Assembly (NCBI GenBank): GCA_030697205.1
Contig: JAUYQP010000015.1
Coordinates: 1-64,000 of the forward strand
Direction of reading: 5' to 3'
Source: Mycobacteriales bacterium
Lineage (GTDB): Bacteria; Actinomycetota; Actinomycetes; Mycobacteriales; SCTD01
DNA: 64,000 bases
The notes beneath the pieces were generated by a model. It saw only the letters and a program-made list of their open reading frames with translations, had not been told where the DNA came from and did not search any database. The position numbers were made by a program, and so were the translations under genes. Shown in pieces: positions 51,374 through 62,114 of this stretch. Positions within the stretch are counted from its first letter, which is position 1. Every line of letters begins with the position of its first letter.

Positions 51374-51421
51374 GCGGTCTCCTCGTAGCTGCGCGGCAGC
51401 GGGCGTTGTCCCACGCCCCGG

Positions 51422-51427
51422 ACCCTA
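51422..51427 (-). promoter_or_regulatory. Candidate -10 box for the SDR-hydrolase operon
   Basis: TAGGGT on the minus strand. Its first three bases are the TAG stop of the small zinc-ribbon-like gene, the same arrangement as at 46095 and 9505. Confidence 0.35.
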
Positions 51428-51712
51428 ACGGGGCCGGCGCCGGTCGCGCGCGGCCCAGCAGGGGGTGTGCCAGTGCCGACGCAGGTCGGGCTGCCCCTCC
51501 GGCCAGGCGACGACGTGCGGTGTGCGGGCAGCGACCTCGTGGTCGCAGCCCGGGCAGCGGTAGGTCTTGTCCGTCGCCGCACCCGAGAGCGACCGCACGA
51601 CCCAGCCGTCCTCGACCCGCTCGCCGGCGGGCAGGCCGACGACGGGGTCGCCGCTGCGCAGCTCCTGCATCGCCCGGCAGCGCTGCTGGGAGCGCCGCGA
51701 GCCGCGGGGCAC
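51425..51712 (-). CDS. Small zinc-ribbon-like protein
   Basis: The frame encodes up to 95 residues. GTG at 51712 shares a base with the TAG stop of the dehydrogenase gene; an internal ATG at about 51670 (MQELRSGDPVVG) is the alternative. The C-half shows TYRCPGCDHEVAARTPHVV followed by HWHTPCW, that is CxxC plus His/His/Cys, a plausible zinc site. The end is very basic (ARDRRRPR). Homologues appear as uncharacterised proteins in actinobacteria. It follows the tandem hydroxyacyl-CoA dehydrogenase, probably in one transcript. Confidence 0.65.
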   Translation of the reverse strand: MPRGSRRSQQRCRAMQELRSGDPVVGLPAGERVEDGWVVRSLSGAATDKTYRCPGCDHEVAARTPHVVAWPEGQPDLRRHWHTPCWAARDRRRPR

Positions 51713-53493
51713 TAGCTCTTGGCGTAGTCGCGGAAGCCGCGGCCAGTCTTGCGCCCGAGGTAGCCGGCCTTCACGAGGTGCTCGAGCATCGGCGCGGGCG
51801 CGTAGCCCGGCTCGCGGAACTCGCCGTAGAGGGTCTTCTGGATCGCCAGCGTCACGTCGAGTCCGACCACGTCCATCAGCGCGAACGGGCCCATCGGGTG
51901 GCCGCAGCCCTTGGTCATCGCGAAGTCGATGTCGTCGATGGTCGCGTAGTGCGCCTCGAGCATCTTCACCGCGTCGTTGAGGTAGGGGAACAGCAGCGCG
52001 TTGACGATGAAGCCGGCGCGGTCGCCGCAGAGCACCGGGTGCTTGCCGGTGGCGGCGCACACCTCGCGGATCGTCGCGACGACGTCGGGGGCGGTGGTCA
52101 CCGTCGGCACGATCTCGACGAGCTTCATGACGGTGGCGGGGTTGAACCAGTGCATGCCGACGACGTCCTGCGGACGGCTGGTCGCGGTCGCGCACTCGAT
52201 GACCGGCAGCGACGAGGTGGTGGTCGCGAGGATCGCGCCGGGCTTGAGGACGTCGTCGAGTGCGCCGAACAGCGCCTTCTTGATCGCGAGGTCCTCGACG
52301 ACGGCCTCGATGACGAGGTCGCAGTCGCGCAGGTCGTCGAGCTCGGTCGTGCCGGTGATGCGCCCGAGCGCCGCACCACGGGCGTCCTCGGACAGCTTGC
52401 CGCGCTGGACGGCCTTGTCGAGCGAGGACTCGATCTTCTTGCGGACGGCGGCGACCTTGTCCTCACCGCGGGCCCGGAAGACGACGTCGTAGCCGCTCTT
52501 CGCGCAGACCTCGACGATGCCGCTGGCCATCGTGCCGGTGCCGATCACGCCGATCGTGCGGACCTCGCGCGGCGCGGCACCGGTGGCCGCGCCACCGGGG
52601 GTCTCGGCGTCGGCGACGACGACGGGCGAGTCGGCGGCCTCGTAGGTGTAGAAGCCGCGCCCGCTCTTGCGGCCGAGCAGGCCGGCGGTGACGTACTGCT
52701 TGAGCAGCGGCGCGGGGGCGTGCAGGTGGTCGCGCGACTGCCGGTACATCGTCTCGAGGATCTCGTAGGCGCTGTCGAGGCCGATGAGGTCGAGCAGCGC
52801 GAGCGGGCCCATCGGGTGGCCGCAGCCGAACCGCATGGCGGCGTCGATGTCCTCGCGGGTCGCGTAGCGCGACTCATACATCCGGACGGCGTTGTTGAGG
52901 TAGCCGAACAGCAGCGCGTTGGCGATGAAGCCGGCGCGGTCGCCGGCGGTGACGCCGGTCTTGCCGGCGGCGGCCACGAGGGCCTCGACGTCCTCGACGA
53001 CGGAGGGGTCGGTGACGACGGTGCGGACGACCTCGACGAGCTCCATGACGGGAGCGGGGTTGAACCAGTGCAGCCCGACGACCTTGGAGGGCCGGTTGGT
53101 CGAGGTGGCGAGCTCGGTCACCGACAGCGCGGAGGTGTTGGTGGCGAGCACCGCGTCCTCGCCGAGCAGCTCGTCGAGCCGGGCGAAGAGCTCCTTCTTG
53201 AGGTCCATGTGCTCCGGGACCGCCTCGACGACGAGCTCGCAGTCCTTGAGCGCGGTCAGGTCGGTGCCCGTGCTGATCCGGCCGAGCAGCGCCTCGACGT
53301 CGGCCTCGGTGAGCTTGCCGCGCTTCACCGCCCGGGCCGTCGAGCTCTGCAGGTGACCCTGGGCGCGGATGACGCCGGCGTCGTCGTGCTCGACGCCCAC
53401 GACCTCGACGCCGGAGCGGGCCAGCACCTCGGCGATGCCCGCACCCATCGTGCCCAGACCGACGACCCCGACCTTGCGGAACTCACGCGCCAC
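51712..53493 (-). CDS. Tandem (double) 3-hydroxyacyl-CoA dehydrogenase
   Basis: The 593-aa protein contains two full 3-hydroxyacyl-CoA dehydrogenase units in series. Each has its own NAD loop (VGLGTMGAGIAE near residue 10; VIGTGTMASGIVE near residue 318), catalytic-His segment (VGLHWFNPAPVMELVEVV; VGMHWFNPATVMKLVEIV) and C-terminal dimer domain (GCGHPMGPLALLDLIGLD; GCGHPMGPFALMDVVGLD), each closing with GRKSGRGF or GRKTGRGF. It oxidises 3-hydroxyacyl-CoA in beta-oxidation or acts on 3-hydroxybutyryl-CoA. GTG at 53493 has GGGAG five bases upstream. The architecture is an internal duplication and is divergent from the GAF-ANTAR gene. Confidence 0.93.
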   Translation of the reverse strand: MAREFRKVGVVGLGTMGAGIAEVLARSGVEVVGVEHDDAGVIRAQGHLQSSTARAVKRGKLTEADVEALLGRISTGTDLTALKDCELVVEAVPEHMDLKKELFARLDELLGEDAVLATNTSALSVTELATSTNRPSKVVGLHWFNPAPVMELVEVVRTVVTDPSVVEDVEALVAAAGKTGVTAGDRAGFIANALLFGYLNNAVRMYESRYATREDIDAAMRFGCGHPMGPLALLDLIGLDSAYEILETMYRQSRDHLHAPAPLLKQYVTAGLLGRKSGRGFYTYEAADSPVVVADAETPGGAATGAAPREVRTIGVIGTGTMASGIVEVCAKSGYDVVFRARGEDKVAAVRKKIESSLDKAVQRGKLSEDARGAALGRITGTTELDDLRDCDLVIEAVVEDLAIKKALFGALDDVLKPGAILATTTSSLPVIECATATSRPQDVVGMHWFNPATVMKLVEIVPTVTTAPDVVATIREVCAATGKHPVLCGDRAGFIVNALLFPYLNDAVKMLEAHYATIDDIDFAMTKGCGHPMGPFALMDVVGLDVTLAIQKTLYGEFREPGYAPAPMLEHLVKAGYLGRKTGRGFRDYAKS

Positions 53494-53526
53494 GACTGCT
53501 CCCTGCTCCAGAGTGTTACCGCCCAG

Positions 53527-53532
53527 TATCCT
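53527..53532 (+). promoter_or_regulatory. Candidate -10 box for the GAF-ANTAR gene
   Basis: TATCCT ends 6 nt before the GTG at 53539, with no RBS. It supports the upstream start over the GTG at 53569. Confidence 0.5.
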
Positions 53533-53538
53533 CACGCC

Positions 53539-54336
53539 GTGAGAGTCGACCCGACGGGGGGTGACACGGTGACGACGACCGACCGGAGCCCCAGCGACGC
53601 CACCAGCGAGCTCGTGGACGCCCTGAGGGAGCGCACCGAGGAGCAGCCCGAGGAGCTGGCGGCCGCGCTGGTCGAGCTCTCCGAGATGCTGCTGGACAGC
53701 GAGCCGCTCCACGCCACGCTGCAGCGGGTCGCGGAGCTCGCCGTGACCGCCGTGCCCGGGTGCACAGCCGCGGGCGTGACGCTGATCCGGGGGACCCAAC
53801 CGGTCACCGCCGCGGCGACCGACGAGCTCACCCTCACCGTCGACGCCCGGCAGTACGCCGCCGACGAGGGCCCGTGCCTCGATGCCGCTCGCCACCGGCG
53901 CGTCAACCGCGTCGACCTCGAGGAGGCCGACCAGCGCTGGCCGGACTTCGCAGCCAGCGCCCGTGAGGTCGGCATCCGCTCCTACCTCGCGGCCCCGCTC
54001 GTCGTCCGCGACACCTCGATCGGCTCCCTCAACCTCTACAGCTCGTCGCACGACGGCTTCGACGCCCTCGACGACGCGCTGGTCTCGCTGTTCTGCGCCC
54101 AGGCCTCCATCGCGCTGGCCAATGCCCAGCTTTACGACCGCACCGCCAGCCTCGCCGAGCAGCTGCGCACGGCGATGGCCAGCCGAGCCCTCATCGAGCA
54201 GGCCAAGGGAGTCCTCATGGCCCAGCACCGGGTCGACGCCGACGCCGCCTTCGCCCTGCTGCGGGACCGGTCGCAGCACGCCAACCGCAAGCTGCGCGAC
54301 GTGGCGCAGCAGGTCGTCGACGACGTGATGATCTAA
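53539..54336 (+). CDS. GAF-ANTAR transcription antitermination regulator
   Basis: The 265-aa protein has a helical head (ELAAALVELSEMLLDSEPLHATLQRVAEL), a GAF domain (VPGCTAAGVTLI, GPCLDAARHRRVNRV, YLAAPLVVRDTSIGSLNLYSSSHDGF) and a C-terminal ANTAR domain (LIEQAKGVLMAQHRVDADAAFALLRDRSQ) that binds paired RNA hairpins to prevent termination. Its ligand and targets are unknown. GTG at 53539 is chosen because TATCCT stands 6 nt upstream; GTG at 53569 is the alternative. A STAS-domain gene follows 48 nt later. Confidence 0.9.
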   Translation: MRVDPTGGDTVTTTDRSPSDATSELVDALRERTEEQPEELAAALVELSEMLLDSEPLHATLQRVAELAVTAVPGCTAAGVTLIRGTQPVTAAATDELTLTVDARQYAADEGPCLDAARHRRVNRVDLEEADQRWPDFAASAREVGIRSYLAAPLVVRDTSIGSLNLYSSSHDGFDALDDALVSLFCAQASIALANAQLYDRTASLAEQLRTAMASRALIEQAKGVLMAQHRVDADAAFALLRDRSQHANRKLRDVAQQVVDDVMI

Positions 54337-54384
54337 AGTCCTCTCCGGAGGGTTGAGACCACAGCCGACCGCAGGAGACCGCCG

Positions 54385-54720
54385 TTGGGGCAGGTCCCGG
54401 GGAGGCTGTCCGTGGACGGTGTGCTGGAGGTCGTGCTGACGACCTCGGGCCGCACGGCGTTCCTGCGGCTCAGCGGTGAGCTCGACCTTGCGACGGCACC
54501 GGGACTTCACCGGCGACTCGCGACGCTGCCGGACACGGTCGAGACCGTCGACGTCCAGGCCGCCGAGCTCACCTTCCTCGACCTCGCCGGCCTCGACGTG
54601 CTGCTCGACCTCGCAACCAGGCTGCGCACCGACGGGGGTGCTCTCGTCGTACGCGCTCCGAGCCCTCCCGTGCGACGCCTGCTGGGGCTGCTGGCCGACC
54701 CGCTGCCGGTCAAGGGCTAG
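54385..54720 (+). CDS. STAS-domain anti-anti-sigma-like protein
   Basis: The 111-aa protein has the STAS fold (AFLRLSGELDLATAPGLHRRLATL; VDVQAAELTFLDLAGLDVLLDLATRL). In SpoIIAA-type antagonists the conserved motif is D-S-S/A-G-L with the phosphorylated serine; here the sequence is FLDLAGL, with leucine at the phosphosite. Switching by an anti-sigma kinase in the usual way is therefore not expected. TTG at 54385 has AGGAG seven bases upstream. It follows the GAF-ANTAR gene and may act with it in stress signalling. Confidence 0.82.
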   Translation: MGQVPGRLSVDGVLEVVLTTSGRTAFLRLSGELDLATAPGLHRRLATLPDTVETVDVQAAELTFLDLAGLDVLLDLATRLRTDGGALVVRAPSPPVRRLLGLLADPLPVKG

Positions 54721-57652: not shown

Positions 57653-58309
57653 TCAGAACAGCGTGGGCGTGAGCGACTCCAGGCCGCGCAGGTGGTCGTA
57701 GTCGACCTGCACGCAGGCGATGCCGCGGTCGGCGGCGAGCACCTTCGCCTGCGGCTTGAACGACTGCGCAGCGAGGACGCCGCGCACCCCGTCGCCGAGC
57801 ACGGTCGACACCCGCTGCAGGTAGCGGGTGAGCTGCTCGACGCTGTCGATCTCGGCGTGCCGCTTCACCTCGACCAGCACGTGGGCACCCGCCGCGTCGC
57901 GGCACAGCAGGTCGACCGGGCCGATGTCGGTGAAGTACTCCCGCTGCACCAGCGTGAAGCCGTCACCGAGGACGTGGCACTGGTCGGCGAGCAGGGCCTG
58001 CAGCTGCTTCTCGACCCCGTCCTTCTGCAGGCCCGGGTCGGTGCCGAGCTCGTGCGCGGTGTCGTGCTGGACGTCCTCGACGGTGATGACGAGCTGCTCG
58101 CCGCCCTTGTTGGTGACCGTCCAGACACCGTCGACCTCGGCGGTCGCGCAGGGTGGGGTCATCCACATCAGCGGCTTGTAGCCCCCGGTGTCGGAGTGCA
58201 CGAGGACCGAGCCGTCCGCCTTCACCATGAGCAGCCGGGTGGCCAGCGGCAGGTGGGCGGTGAGGCGGCCGACGTAGTCGACCGAGCAGGTCGCGAGGAC
58301 GAGGCGCAC
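57653..58309 (-). CDS. nucS: Mismatch-specific endonuclease NucS
   Basis: The 218-aa nuclease provides mismatch repair in actinobacteria that lack MutS/MutL. The N-domain begins [20 protein letters not shown]. The C-terminal RecB-like nuclease has D133 (GPVDLLC), E147 and K149 (VEVKRH) and the QLTRYLQ helix. It ends in TPTLF, matching the usual C-terminal tail that contacts the beta clamp. GTG at 58309 has a TAGCCT box 6 nt upstream and no RBS. A diverged copy of part of this gene (residues about 31-50) lies upstream at 58410-58468. Confidence 0.95.
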
Positions 58310-58315
58310 GCGTCG

Positions 58316-58321
58316 AGGCTA
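58316..58321 (-). promoter_or_regulatory. Candidate -10 box for leaderless nucS
   Basis: TAGCCT on the minus strand, 6 nt before the GTG at 58309, with no RBS. Confidence 0.48.
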
Positions 58322-58409
58322 GCCGCGGGCGGCAGCGGCTGGCGCGAGAGCCCGTCCGCGCTCCATCTCGTCGGTGTGCGCGCCGTGAAGGCGCTCGGCG
58401 AGGCGCGGC

Positions 58410-58468
58410 TCATCCACATCAGCGGCGTGTAGCCGCCTGCCTCCGAGTGCACCAGGACCGAGCCGTCC
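58410..58468 (-). pseudogene. Diverged duplicate of an internal nucS segment
   Basis: Bases 58410-58468 align without gaps to nucS at 58159-58217, in the same orientation, with 52 of 59 positions identical by my count. The duplicate reads [19 protein letters not shown] against [19 protein letters not shown] in NucS. No other nucS sequence can be recognised on either side. The gap 58310-58551 otherwise holds the nucS promoter and nothing I can identify. Confidence 0.75.
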
Positions 58469-58551: not shown

Positions 58552-59475
58552 ATGCCGGACGAATGCACACCCCTCAGCGACGACGGCTTCTCCCTCGTGG
58601 AGGTGATCGTCGCCATGATGCTCGCCGTCGGCATGATGACGGCGCTCGCCGGCAACCTCGTCAGCGCCCTGCATGCCGCCGCGTACGCGCGGCACGTGCA
58701 ATCCGCCGGAGACCTGCTCATGAAGGAGATCGAGGAGCTGCGGGCCCTTCCCTGGGCAGCGCTGGGCCACGCGTCCACGGATCTCGGCACCGACCCGTCC
58801 CTGGTCCTGCAGAGCGGGGTTCTCACCGCCCCCGTCCTGGCGGCCCGCGAGCCGGTGGTGGTCCTCGCGACGGGCGCCGGAGTCGCGCAGCACGTGCGGC
58901 CGGTGGCCTTGCCCCCCGCAATTCGCGCGACCGTCAGCAGCTATGTGACGTCACCGCCGGGCTGCCTCTGTCGCCGGGTGCAGGTCGCGATCGCCTGGTC
59001 CGAACGCAACAAGGCCAAGTCCCGGAGCACCAGCACCCTGGTCTACAGCGCCGCCCCTGTCGGCCGGACCTCGGGCGCCTTCGTGCTCGGGGCGTCGACG
59101 CTGACGGTGCCGGACGCGCCTCGCGGCACCGCCGCGCCAGTCGGCGTCCTGCTGTCCAACGACGGCCAGCAGCAGCCGTTCCGGCTGACCGCGAACGTGG
59201 TGCGGGGAGTGACTGTCCTGCCGTGGGCGATCAGCTGGTACGCCGACCCGAACCGCAACGGCAGGGTGGACCTTGGAGAGCTGCGGCTGGACACCGCCTT
59301 GCCGGGCACGGGCGCGCTCGACCTCGTGGGCTCGGGGACGACCGTCCCGGTGACTGCCGTGGTGGCGGTCCCGCCGAGCACCTCCACCGGGGACGTGACC
59401 GTGACGGTGACGGCTACGTCCCCGGCCGATCCGAGCGCCAGCGTGCGCAGCTTCTTCACTGTGCGGGTCACGTGA
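58552..59475 (+). CDS. Prepilin-like protein, first of three
   Basis: The 307-aa protein has a type IV prepilin N-terminus: short leader ending DDG, then FSLVEVIVAMMLAVGMMTALAGNLVSAL, with the processing site after the glycine and Glu at mature position 5. The rest is a Ser/Thr/Val-rich extracytoplasmic part with a CLCRRV pair and VDLGELRLD, and an Ig-like end (TVTVTATSPADPSASV). It would be handled by a prepilin peptidase, none of which is encoded nearby. The start is uncertain; ATG at 58552 is used, with GTG at 58546 possible, and no RBS is clear. It overlaps the next gene by 4 nt. Confidence 0.75.
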   Translation: MPDECTPLSDDGFSLVEVIVAMMLAVGMMTALAGNLVSALHAAAYARHVQSAGDLLMKEIEELRALPWAALGHASTDLGTDPSLVLQSGVLTAPVLAAREPVVVLATGAGVAQHVRPVALPPAIRATVSSYVTSPPGCLCRRVQVAIAWSERNKAKSRSTSTLVYSAAPVGRTSGAFVLGASTLTVPDAPRGTAAPVGVLLSNDGQQQPFRLTANVVRGVTVLPWAISWYADPNRNGRVDLGELRLDTALPGTGALDLVGSGTTVPVTAVVAVPPSTSTGDVTVTVTATSPADPSASVRSFFTVRVT

Positions 59476-59978
59476 GGCGGGATGACGCGGGCGTGACGCT
59501 CGCGGAGCTGCTCGTCAGTGTGGTTCTCCTCGGCATCGTCATGTCGGTCCTGTTCGGGGGCGTGCTCTCGGTGCACCGGACCTACCGCAGCGTGACCTCC
59601 GACGTGTGGAACCGGGAGGACGCGATGCGGGCGACCGCCTGGCTCAGCCGAGACCTGCGCGACGCCCTGACGGTCACCCGCGGGGCCACAGCCAGCACGG
59701 TCAGCGTCTGGCTGGACCGCGACGACGACGGCCTGCAGTCCGCCGCGGAGACGATCACGTGGTCCGCGGGCACGACCGCCGCCGGTGCGCCCGCCCTGCT
59801 GCGGACGGCTGGAGACGGCAGCAGGCGCGTCCTCCCGTCAATCACCGAGCTGCGCCTGGCGTACACGCCGGCCGCGCCGGCCTCCGTGCGCACCGTGACG
59901 GCCACGGTGAGCTATGCCAGGGCTGACGGTTCGCCTCGCGGCGACACCTGGACCGTCCGGAACAGGAACACAGCGTGA
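59472..59978 (+). CDS. Prepilin-like protein, second of three
   Basis: The 168-aa protein starts RRDDAG and then VTLAELLVSVVLLGIVMSVLFGGVL: a prepilin leader with the cleavage glycine, Glu at mature position 5 and a 20-residue hydrophobic helix. It continues with a PilW/GspJ-like region (HRTYRSVTSDVWNREDAMRATAWLSRDLRDA). These minor pseudopilins prime pilus assembly. GTG at 59472 overlaps the previous stop by 4 nt, and its own stop overlaps the next start by 4 nt. Confidence 0.78.
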   Translation: MRRDDAGVTLAELLVSVVLLGIVMSVLFGGVLSVHRTYRSVTSDVWNREDAMRATAWLSRDLRDALTVTRGATASTVSVWLDRDDDGLQSAAETITWSAGTTAAGAPALLRTAGDGSRRVLPSITELRLAYTPAAPASVRTVTATVSYARADGSPRGDTWTVRNRNTA

Positions 59979-61252
59979 GGCGGCTTCGGCGCGATGACGG
60001 CTTCGCGATGATCATGGTCATCGGGACCGCCTCCGTGCTCGTGCTGCTCGTTGTGATCCTGTTCCAGGTCACCGTCCGGGCTCTGGGCACGCACGCTGCT
60101 CACGCCGTGCGCCATACGAGCCTCGACGCGGCGGACGCTGGCATCGACGACGCCCTTGCCCGGCTGTCGGTAGACAGGTCCTGGAACACCGGCCACGTCC
60201 TCGCTCCCGGGGCTGGGGAAGCGGCCGCGGCCAGGGCCGCCCTGGAGGCGCTCGCTCCCACGGGCCGGGTCCGGACGCCGACCGGGGACTACGTCGTCCT
60301 ACGGCCTTCGGACCGCCGGGTCCTGTGGGCGCTGGGCTACGCGCCGAACTACGAGCGGGCCACCTCGCGGCGGCTCGTGCGCGTCGAGTTCGCCTTCCCC
60401 CGTGACCCGGCGCCCGCGGCGCTGCTCACAGGCCGGGACATCGCCATGTCGGGTGGCTTCGAGGTCCGGAGCGGCACCGGGGTCGGCAGCGGCGCTGACG
60501 TCCACTCCAATGTCAACATCACCGGGACGGCTGGCAGCGTGTCCGTCACCGGCGGAACCTTCACGGCGACCGGCCTGAACCAGTTCGCGCCGGCGGCGTC
60601 GGGCGCACCTGCGCGCACCATGCCGACCATCGACCCACGGCTGCTCTACGCGGGCGCCGTACATCCGTCGGTCAAGCCGTTCTGGACCGACCTCTGCCCC
60701 GGGGGCGAGACCAAGGAGCCCGCCGGCACTCCCTGCACCGGACCGTCGAAGCCCACACCGGCCGGGTGGTCGTGGTCGTGGTCGTCCAAGGACAACACCA
60801 ACATGTGGACGCAGTCCTCCGCCGGGCCCGTGGGCGTGTACTACGTCTACCGAGGAAACGCGGAGCTGCGCACCAACGGCGACAGCGTCCAGCAGACGAT
60901 CATCACCGAGTCCTCGACCAACCGCACCTGCCCGTCGCTCGGCGACGGCGCCATCACCGTGCAGAAGACCAAGGTCTACGCCTACCTGCCGGGCATCACG
61001 CTCTACGCGGGTGGCTCCCTCTCCATGGTGACCGGCAGCGGCGCCTACAGCGGTCTCGTGGCAGCGCAGAACAGCCTGAGTCTGTCCACAGCCAGCGCGC
61101 CAGGCATCACGGGGTGGGTCATCGCCGAGAACCTGTGCCCGACGGACAGCAACAGCTTCCAGGGGTCGCAGCTCGTCTACCAGCCGCAGGTGGCGCAGCC
61201 GCGCTCCGGACCGCCGCAGGTGACATCCCGACACGAGGCCTTCGGGCCGTGA
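59975..61252 (+). CDS. PilX-like pilus-associated membrane protein, third of three
   Basis: The 425-aa protein opens MRRLRRDDGFAMIMVIGTASVLVLLVVILFQV, the PilX-type N-terminus that lacks Glu at position 5 (Met/Ile-rich instead). A large Gly/Ser/Thr-rich exported part follows, with beta-helix-like stretches (VHSNVNITGTAGSVSVTGGTFTATG, LYAGGSLSMVTGSGAYSGLVAAQNS) and four or more cysteines. This is the likely tip or adhesive component. GTG at 59975 overlaps the previous stop by 4 nt. No PilB, PilC or PilD is encoded nearby. Confidence 0.75.
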   Translation: MRRLRRDDGFAMIMVIGTASVLVLLVVILFQVTVRALGTHAAHAVRHTSLDAADAGIDDALARLSVDRSWNTGHVLAPGAGEAAAARAALEALAPTGRVRTPTGDYVVLRPSDRRVLWALGYAPNYERATSRRLVRVEFAFPRDPAPAALLTGRDIAMSGGFEVRSGTGVGSGADVHSNVNITGTAGSVSVTGGTFTATGLNQFAPAASGAPARTMPTIDPRLLYAGAVHPSVKPFWTDLCPGGETKEPAGTPCTGPSKPTPAGWSWSWSSKDNTNMWTQSSAGPVGVYYVYRGNAELRTNGDSVQQTIITESSTNRTCPSLGDGAITVQKTKVYAYLPGITLYAGGSLSMVTGSGAYSGLVAAQNSLSLSTASAPGITGWVIAENLCPTDSNSFQGSQLVYQPQVAQPRSGPPQVTSRHEAFGP

Positions 61253-61540
61253 GCGGGTCGGCGGGCCCGCGGACGTGACGGTTCGGCCGGGCTAGTAGGA
61301 CTGACGGCGTGGGACTGATCGCCGTACTCCTGGCCGTCCTCGTCGTCAGCGACGCGACGGTCCCCAAGGGAACCCGAGCGTGGTCTTCACAGCGTTGTCC
61401 AGATGAGGGGAAGTCGTGGCCCCACCAGCCGCCGGCCCGAGCTCCGGCTCCACCGACTGCCTCTCGAGCAGTCAGCGGACCAGCATCTCGCACGCAAGGC
61501 GGGTCGAGCTGAGCTCGGGCCTCCGCGGCGCGGTAGCAGC

Positions 61541-61624
61541 CAGATCTACGCCGAAGGCGTGGAGCAACCGAAGGAGTTGACAGCGCTGCAGCAGGCGGGT
61601 TGTCAGCTACCGCGGCCACAGACG
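61541..61624 (+). pseudogene. EAL-domain remnant
   Basis: A short stretch reads IYAEGVEQPKELTALQQAGC, which matches the conserved VIAEGVET/EQLAALRELGC segment near the end of EAL (cyclic-di-GMP phosphodiesterase) domains. Upstream and downstream sequence in this frame is unrelated, so only about 25 codons of the domain survive. It lies in a 61253-62126 stretch with no intact gene. Confidence 0.6.
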
Positions 61625-61711
61625 CTCCGGGACACCACCCGATCGTGCGCAGCCACGCTGTCTGGACGGCACCGGACGGGAGGCTCTCACCGTTCGAACC
61701 CGCAACCGAGC

Positions 61712-61933
61712 CTGCAGGACGTGGCTGACCAGTGGATGCTCGGCGACGACGTCCTGGTCGCACCCGTCCTGCGCGAGGGTGCTCGCACGCGCGACGTGGT
61801 CCTGCCACGAGGGTGCTGGCGCTACGAGCCGAGCGGGCGCCGGTACGACGGCGGTCGACAGGTCCGGGTGGCCGCCGACCTGTCGACGCTGCCGTACTTC
61901 AGCACGTGCGTCTCGCGTCCCTTCGGCCAGTGA
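61712..61933 (+). pseudogene. GH31 alpha-glucosidase C-terminal remnant
   Basis: In the same frame the sequence VADQWMLGDDVLVAPVLREG followed by ARTRDVVLPRGCWRYEPSGRRYDGG and LSTLPYFSTC matches the end of the barrel and the proximal beta domain of GH31 glycosidases (DQF-LGD-LLVAPVL, then VYLP-G-W). About 70 codons to a stop at 61933 remain; the catalytic part is absent. The 5' boundary is a frame disruption near 61700. Confidence 0.68.
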
Positions 61934-62114
61934 TCCCCCGCGCTCCCAGGCGCGGACGCCGGGTCGCTCGCGTCGCACGCGCATGGAGAGCACGTCGATG
62001 CACGCGGCCGACGCCGTCGACCGAGCAGGTCATGCGGATGAGGCGTACGCCGCGACGCTAGCCCTGCCGGGGGCGCAGGTCGCGCGAGCCCTGCCGCTCA
62101 GAGGCAATCTGCTC

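Follow-up and report, generated by a model that had tools for sequence, protein, structure and literature searches.

The locus described here raises the question of which filament, if any, could be served by three coupled genes for prepilin-like proteins that have no pilus machinery beside them. The genes lie in the window analyzed in this study, which is the first 64 kb (64,000 nucleotides) of contig C15 (138,567 bases) in a Mycobacteriales draft genome of 4.0 Mb and 59 contigs, rated 100% complete. They are arranged head to tail and are referred to as V, W and X (a slash in a motif marks the putative cleavage site):

58552..59475, plus strand: V, PilV/GspI-like minor prepilin, 307 aa, motif DDG/FSLVE
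59472..59978, plus strand: W, PilW/GspJ-like minor prepilin, 168 aa, motif DAG/VTLAE
59975..61252, plus strand: X, PilX/GspK-like tip minor prepilin, 425 aa, motif DDG/FAMIM

All three frames are intact, comprising 900 codons in total, and stop and start codons overlap by the four bases GTGA at both V/W and W/X. A preliminary description of the window had reported these coordinates, overlaps and motifs, and all were found as described. Judged from the translated sequences, the proteins have the short leader, the Gly before the cleavage site and the hydrophobic N-terminal helix of type IV prepilins. W passes the Pfam N_methyl model (26.9 bits, cut-off 21.2), and V, which is under the Pfam cut-off with 17.3, passes the NCBIfam model IV_pilin_GFxxxE (17.3 against 16.3). 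X has the prepilin motif and the helix; it gave no match to any Pfam family at E<1, PilX_N (PF14341) included, nor to an NCBIfam prepilin model, and PilX_N matched none of 15 X homologues at E<0.1. The earlier label “PilX-like” for X is accordingly retained by position, loss of Glu5 and predicted fold only, and its class placement comes via homology to the X proteins of pil operons. The prepilin signal is not a chance one, because all three proteins can be aligned along most of their length to the corresponding proteins of a pil operon on contig C14. Three collinear minor pilins, the third of which has no Glu at position 5, correspond to a PilV-PilW-PilX (GspI-J-K) tip set. Sequence searches of V, W and X against the PDB returned pilin N-termini or weak matches only, and a PHROGs search gave nothing of use.

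The genome was searched by protein family for pilus machinery. No match to the T2SSE ATPase, the T2SSF platform protein or the A24 peptidase was obtained anywhere on C15, which bears out the earlier remark that no such genes are nearby; the set is therefore not a complete type IV pilus locus, as its own ATPase, platform and peptidase are absent from this contig. Such a locus was found on C14, where genes for a small GTPase, PilB, a PilT-like ATPase, PilC, two PilA, V, W, X, PilD, PilM, PilN and PilO are present (domains were confirmed for PilB, the PilT-like ATPase, PilC, PilD and PilM, while PilN and PilO were assigned by position and homologues). The C14 PilD is the only A24 prepilin peptidase detected in the genome. 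A second locus, on C45, has genes for PilB, another T2SSE ATPase, PilC, prepilin-like V, W and X, and PilA; no A24 peptidase was found on this contig. The proposal that a minor-pilin set could borrow machinery encoded elsewhere is thus supported, with the complete C14 locus at hand and C45 as an alternative. One more large T2SSE ATPase match, the third (E 7e-130), was observed in a 918-aa open frame on C16 (G000:C16:17656-18810; L002, L018), a contig without platform protein or peptidase matches. On C10, far from both pilus loci, an orphan gene for a pilin-like protein matches N_methyl strongly (G000:C10:54054-54440; L019 4055-4441).

The window set was compared with the two operonic sets of the same genome. 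Against the C14 proteins, V showed 31.6% identity over 244 aa (E 3e-22), W 30.8% over 185 aa (E 2e-18) and X approximately 32% (32.1%) over 448 columns (E 2e-40), and the window genes are one-to-one collinear paralogues of C14 V, W and X at about 31% identity. Similarity to the C45 proteins was weak and mostly confined to N-terminal parts. Operonic V proteins that were recovered whole have 491-557 aa, and the alignment indicates that the 307-aa window V consists of the core only, without the roughly 220-aa C-terminal domain. The preliminary description had named a rearranged pilus operon as the alternative to a separate cassette. Relatives do carry V-W-X inside an operon, but nothing is missing from the C14 operon, V-W-X included, and a rearranged piece of the main operon was rejected; the window triplet is an additional, off-operon PilV-W-X (GspI-J-K-type) set. 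A recent duplication from C14 was not supported either, given 31% identity and a worse tree when window and C14 sets were placed as sisters (p-AU 0.0385, borderline).

No second set of this kind was found by protein searches with X in the 24 family and 298 order genomes sampled, among which there was no congener. The full-length X matches in family and order were the operonic X of two genomes, G005 and G015, adjoining pilD and pilM, and a profile search of the class (394 genomes) revealed further full-length homologues in other orders. Every full-length X homologue in relatives adjoins pilD where the contig is long enough, and on longer contigs it is found within pilB-T-C-A-V-W-X-D-M-N-O. Identity between the window proteins and any full-length homologue recovered does not exceed about 35%. 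Many weaker X-like matches were also obtained, and 13 of these regions were inspected. One of them (G311:C73; L157 5950-10033) holds a further V-W-X-like triplet, likewise coupled by 4-base overlaps, around which no pilus machinery was recognised in 15 kb. Stand-alone V-W-X sets therefore probably recur. In one draft genome (G355; L125, L126), two V-W-X-pilD stretches were observed on different contigs, reflecting duplication or mixed strains. Two scans of genome contigs gave no useful named relative and one weak match, to Rubrobacteraceae.

In phylogenetic trees, window V, W and X were on long branches, and the joint tree grouped the set with G005, G363 and G418 (96/98). Direct transfer from a G005-like donor was rejected, as was the sister placement with G005 alone on which it was judged (p 0.0017). 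The pilD tree united the four f28 genomes (100/99), a grouping that V-W-X rejected with a p-AU of 3.7e-6 without the window set; the comparison is subject to long branches, to an incomplete PilD sequence in one row and to the choice of the tested group once the trees were known. Operonic V-W-X and pilD conflict as if the tip module had been exchanged between operons. Either such exchange or ancient paralogues that were differentially lost could account for the pattern.

The surroundings of the set were analyzed for traces of its arrival:

57653..58309, minus strand: intact nucS, mismatch repair endonuclease; conserved left neighbour, present in 22/24 family genomes
58390..58468, minus strand: left nucS relic, an internal segment corresponding to nucS 58139-58217; 81% identity over 79 nt, 87% over 62 nt
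61403..61933, plus strand: open frame with a remnant of glycoside hydrolase family 31 (GH31), residues 102-166 being a C-terminal fragment (PF21365, E 3.1e-12)
62004..62097, minus strand: right nucS relic, 5' end and upstream flank corresponding to 58265-58359; 83% identity over 60 nt, 77% over 95 nt

The duplicated nucS fragment and the gene remnants noticed earlier at this locus are real, the latter including the GH31 fragment; the second nucS fragment, at the other end, had gone unmentioned. The two nucS relics bracket the cassette and the GH31 remnant, and the right one takes in non-coding DNA upstream of nucS. The left relic matches the genome's own nucS and that of a relative equally. 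In relatives, variable genes are found upstream of nucS, followed by a methylmalonyl-CoA mutase gene. The distance from nucS to the homocysteine methyltransferase homologue is about 95 bases in G002 and about 4.6 kb in the window. On the simplest reading, part of nucS was duplicated, after which the cassette with the GH31 remnant landed inside the duplicate, with the loss of ~47 bases. The data support a lineage-specific insertion of V-W-X at a variable site, and this part of the earlier suggestion of a “recently acquired” cassette stands. Its recency is not established: nucS relics at 77-87% identity to the intact gene are not fresh, identity to all homologues is low, the base composition is native (70.7-72.4% G+C for V, W and X vs 72.7% for the window, so that foreign composition was dismissed) and no donor was found.

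Two further observations were made by eye. Contig C242 of G002 (L078, 5705-5920) also has a degraded piece of the nucS 5' end, in the midst of genes that resemble toxin-antitoxin and transposase genes. At 51406-54510 of the window, two very long open frames occupy opposite strands of the same DNA, the minus frame looking like a tandem 3-hydroxyacyl-CoA dehydrogenase and the end of the plus frame GAF/ANTAR-like.

The structure of X was predicted using AlphaFold2 with 15 homologues (pLDDT 75.7), replacing a model from 4 sequences (pLDDT 54). The model consists of a long pilin helix (8-64), a small pilin-like head and a beta-solenoid (138-405). The best Foldseek match was ComZ of Thermus (6qvi, E 3.9e-7). 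With VIA-align, ice-binding proteins occupied the top 23 rows, residues 140-404 being matched to the ice-binding protein 4nu2 with Z 15.7 and an rmsd of 2.9 for 182 aligned residues; the next unrelated fold after ice-binding proteins and ComZ had Z 7.3. ComZ itself gave Z 13.9 with an rmsd of 10.8 over 301 residues, and the domains are therefore oriented differently in the model. The predicted X matches ComZ over both parts, although the strand that determines where the solenoid is inserted, the last one (419-422), is of low confidence; in ComZ the solenoid is inserted ahead of the last strand of the GspK-like domain. Sequence profile searches of X against the PDB gave no ComZ or ice-binding match, so the resemblance to ComZ is one of architecture. 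Similarly, X has no Pfam match to the ice-binding DUF3494 family and resembles it in predicted fold only; ice binding by X is not proposed. Thus, X is modelled as a GspK-type pilin that carries a beta-solenoid, the architecture of ComZ, for whose two domains the closest folds were reported to be GspK and 4NU2 (PMC6561018). A full-text literature search found no paper that brings ComZ, solenoid, pilin and Actinobacteria together.

Accordingly, we hypothesize, with moderate confidence, that V-W-X is an accessory minor-pilin tip module that uses the C14 machine. According to the model for type 4 filaments, the filament is started by minor pilins in a complex whose cap is a subunit without Glu5, and this complex stays at the tip (PMC10191384); PilX and GspK lack Glu5 (PMC7541494). 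As pilins of the GspI, GspJ and GspK types, V, W and X would initiate a type IV pilus and remain at its tip, offering an alternative to the V-W-X tip of the C14 operon itself. If expressed, they would presumably be processed by C14 PilD, and the pilus would be polymerised by the PilB/PilT/PilC/PilMNO machine of C14, which we infer rather than that of C45 because of the paralogy. X would be the outermost subunit, and its predicted ComZ-like beta-solenoid, similar to ComZ at the level of the fold only, may contact a surface ligand, which could be DNA or another surface. An alternative tip for the C14 pilus is suggested by analogy with Myxococcus xanthus, whose three minor-pilin/PilY1 clusters are believed to share a single machine, either cluster 1 or cluster 3 being enough by itself (PMC7541494), and with Xylella, where the functions of paralogous pilus genes have diverged (PMC9956873). 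More tentatively, and with rather less confidence than not, V-W-X triplets in this part of the bacterial tree could be exchangeable modules that move between the pil operons of different orders and are also kept off-operon as spare or alternative tips, letting one machine display different ComZ-like tip receptors.

The main rival is a silent or decaying remnant, that is, a set that was inserted in a nucS duplicate, was deprived of its native promoter and of the V leader where the left junction formed, and makes no functional tip although its frames remain open. The start codon of V is uncertain, with GTG 58546, ATG 58519 and GTG 58447 also in frame, and the shortest leader, from ATG 58552, is MPDECTPLSDDG, which has zero Lys or Arg, whereas the other V leaders compared have basic residues. 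Basic residues are also present in the leaders of W (VRRDDAG) and X (VRRLRRDDG). No Shine-Dalgarno sequence is evident before window V, while C14 V has AGGAGG, and scans for promoters (sigma-70-type sites only) and terminators gave nothing. Translation may begin further upstream, or the junction may have damaged the 5' end; reading V from GTG 58447 would give a leader with basic residues, a point against the remnant reading. The relics of nucS and GH31 on the flanks, the long branches and the fact that none of the sampled relatives keeps the set fit a remnant as well. Against a remnant stand the three intact frames with exact GTGA coupling. Moreover, the third-position G+C of V and X (~0.90) is within the range of operonic minor pilins, and most invariant family positions are kept (26/34 in X, 18/23 in W and 16/22 in V), although this conservation is the lowest or equal lowest among the sets compared. 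We therefore regard a silent remnant as unlikely.

Two other readings keep the set functional. In a more specific form of the accessory-tip reading, X would act, in the manner of ComZ, as a DNA receptor devoted to natural transformation: DNA bound at the C14 pilus tip would be drawn in by PilT-driven retraction and passed to ComEC. ComZ has been argued to sit at the pilus tip and bind DNA (PMC6561018), and the predicted architecture of X, the PilT-like ATPase in the C14 operon and a ComEC homologue on C37 are in line with this. The operonic X proteins are homologous over the same region, however, which means that the fold is not peculiar to competence modules; ComEC homologues are widespread (10/14 control genomes); and the solenoid of X is slightly acidic overall (net -2), although ComZ too has no obvious positive patches (PMC6561018). 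We consider this specialization rather improbable. It is very unlikely that the set serves the pilus of C45 instead of that of C14: this locus does encode ATPases, a platform protein and pilins, but its V, W and X resemble the window proteins N-terminally only, where the C14 set aligns over most of the length, and a pilus of C45 would need C14 PilD anyway, as no peptidase was found there. An accessory tip for the C14 pilus remains our preferred reading.

Pilus tips decide what a cell grips, be it surfaces, neighbours or DNA, and the presence of a stand-alone and an operonic tip set in one genome offers a test of pilus retargeting by the swap of a three-gene module. The closest counterparts of the window set are the operonic PilV-W-X of the same genome and class, which match it in gene content and gene order and, by homology, in fold, at 25-35% identity; the window set differs in being off-operon and additional, in its V without the C-terminal domain and in its long branch. 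The GspK-GspI-GspJ pseudopilin tip complex of type II secretion likewise comprises three minor pilins in the roles I, J and K with a tip subunit without Glu5, but in the model X adds a beta-solenoid to the pilin head, apparently at an insertion point different from that of GspK, as reported for ComZ, and neither secretion substrates nor a secretin are implied for the window set. Clusters 1-3 of Myxococcus xanthus resemble it in that several minor-pilin sets would serve one machine and PilX has no Glu5 (PMC7541494); they also encode FimU and a large PilY1, neither of which was recognised here. With ComZ of Thermus thermophilus (6qvi; PMC6561018), X shares a predicted GspK-type pilin domain, an ice-binding-protein-like beta-solenoid and a predicted tip position. 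The two have no detectable sequence similarity, and X belongs to a V-W-X triplet while ComZ belongs to the pilA1-4/comZ locus. The model would thus extend to a high-GC lineage the kind of tip architecture that was described for ComZ in Thermus, and it suggests that the cell may be able to change what its pilus tip grips.
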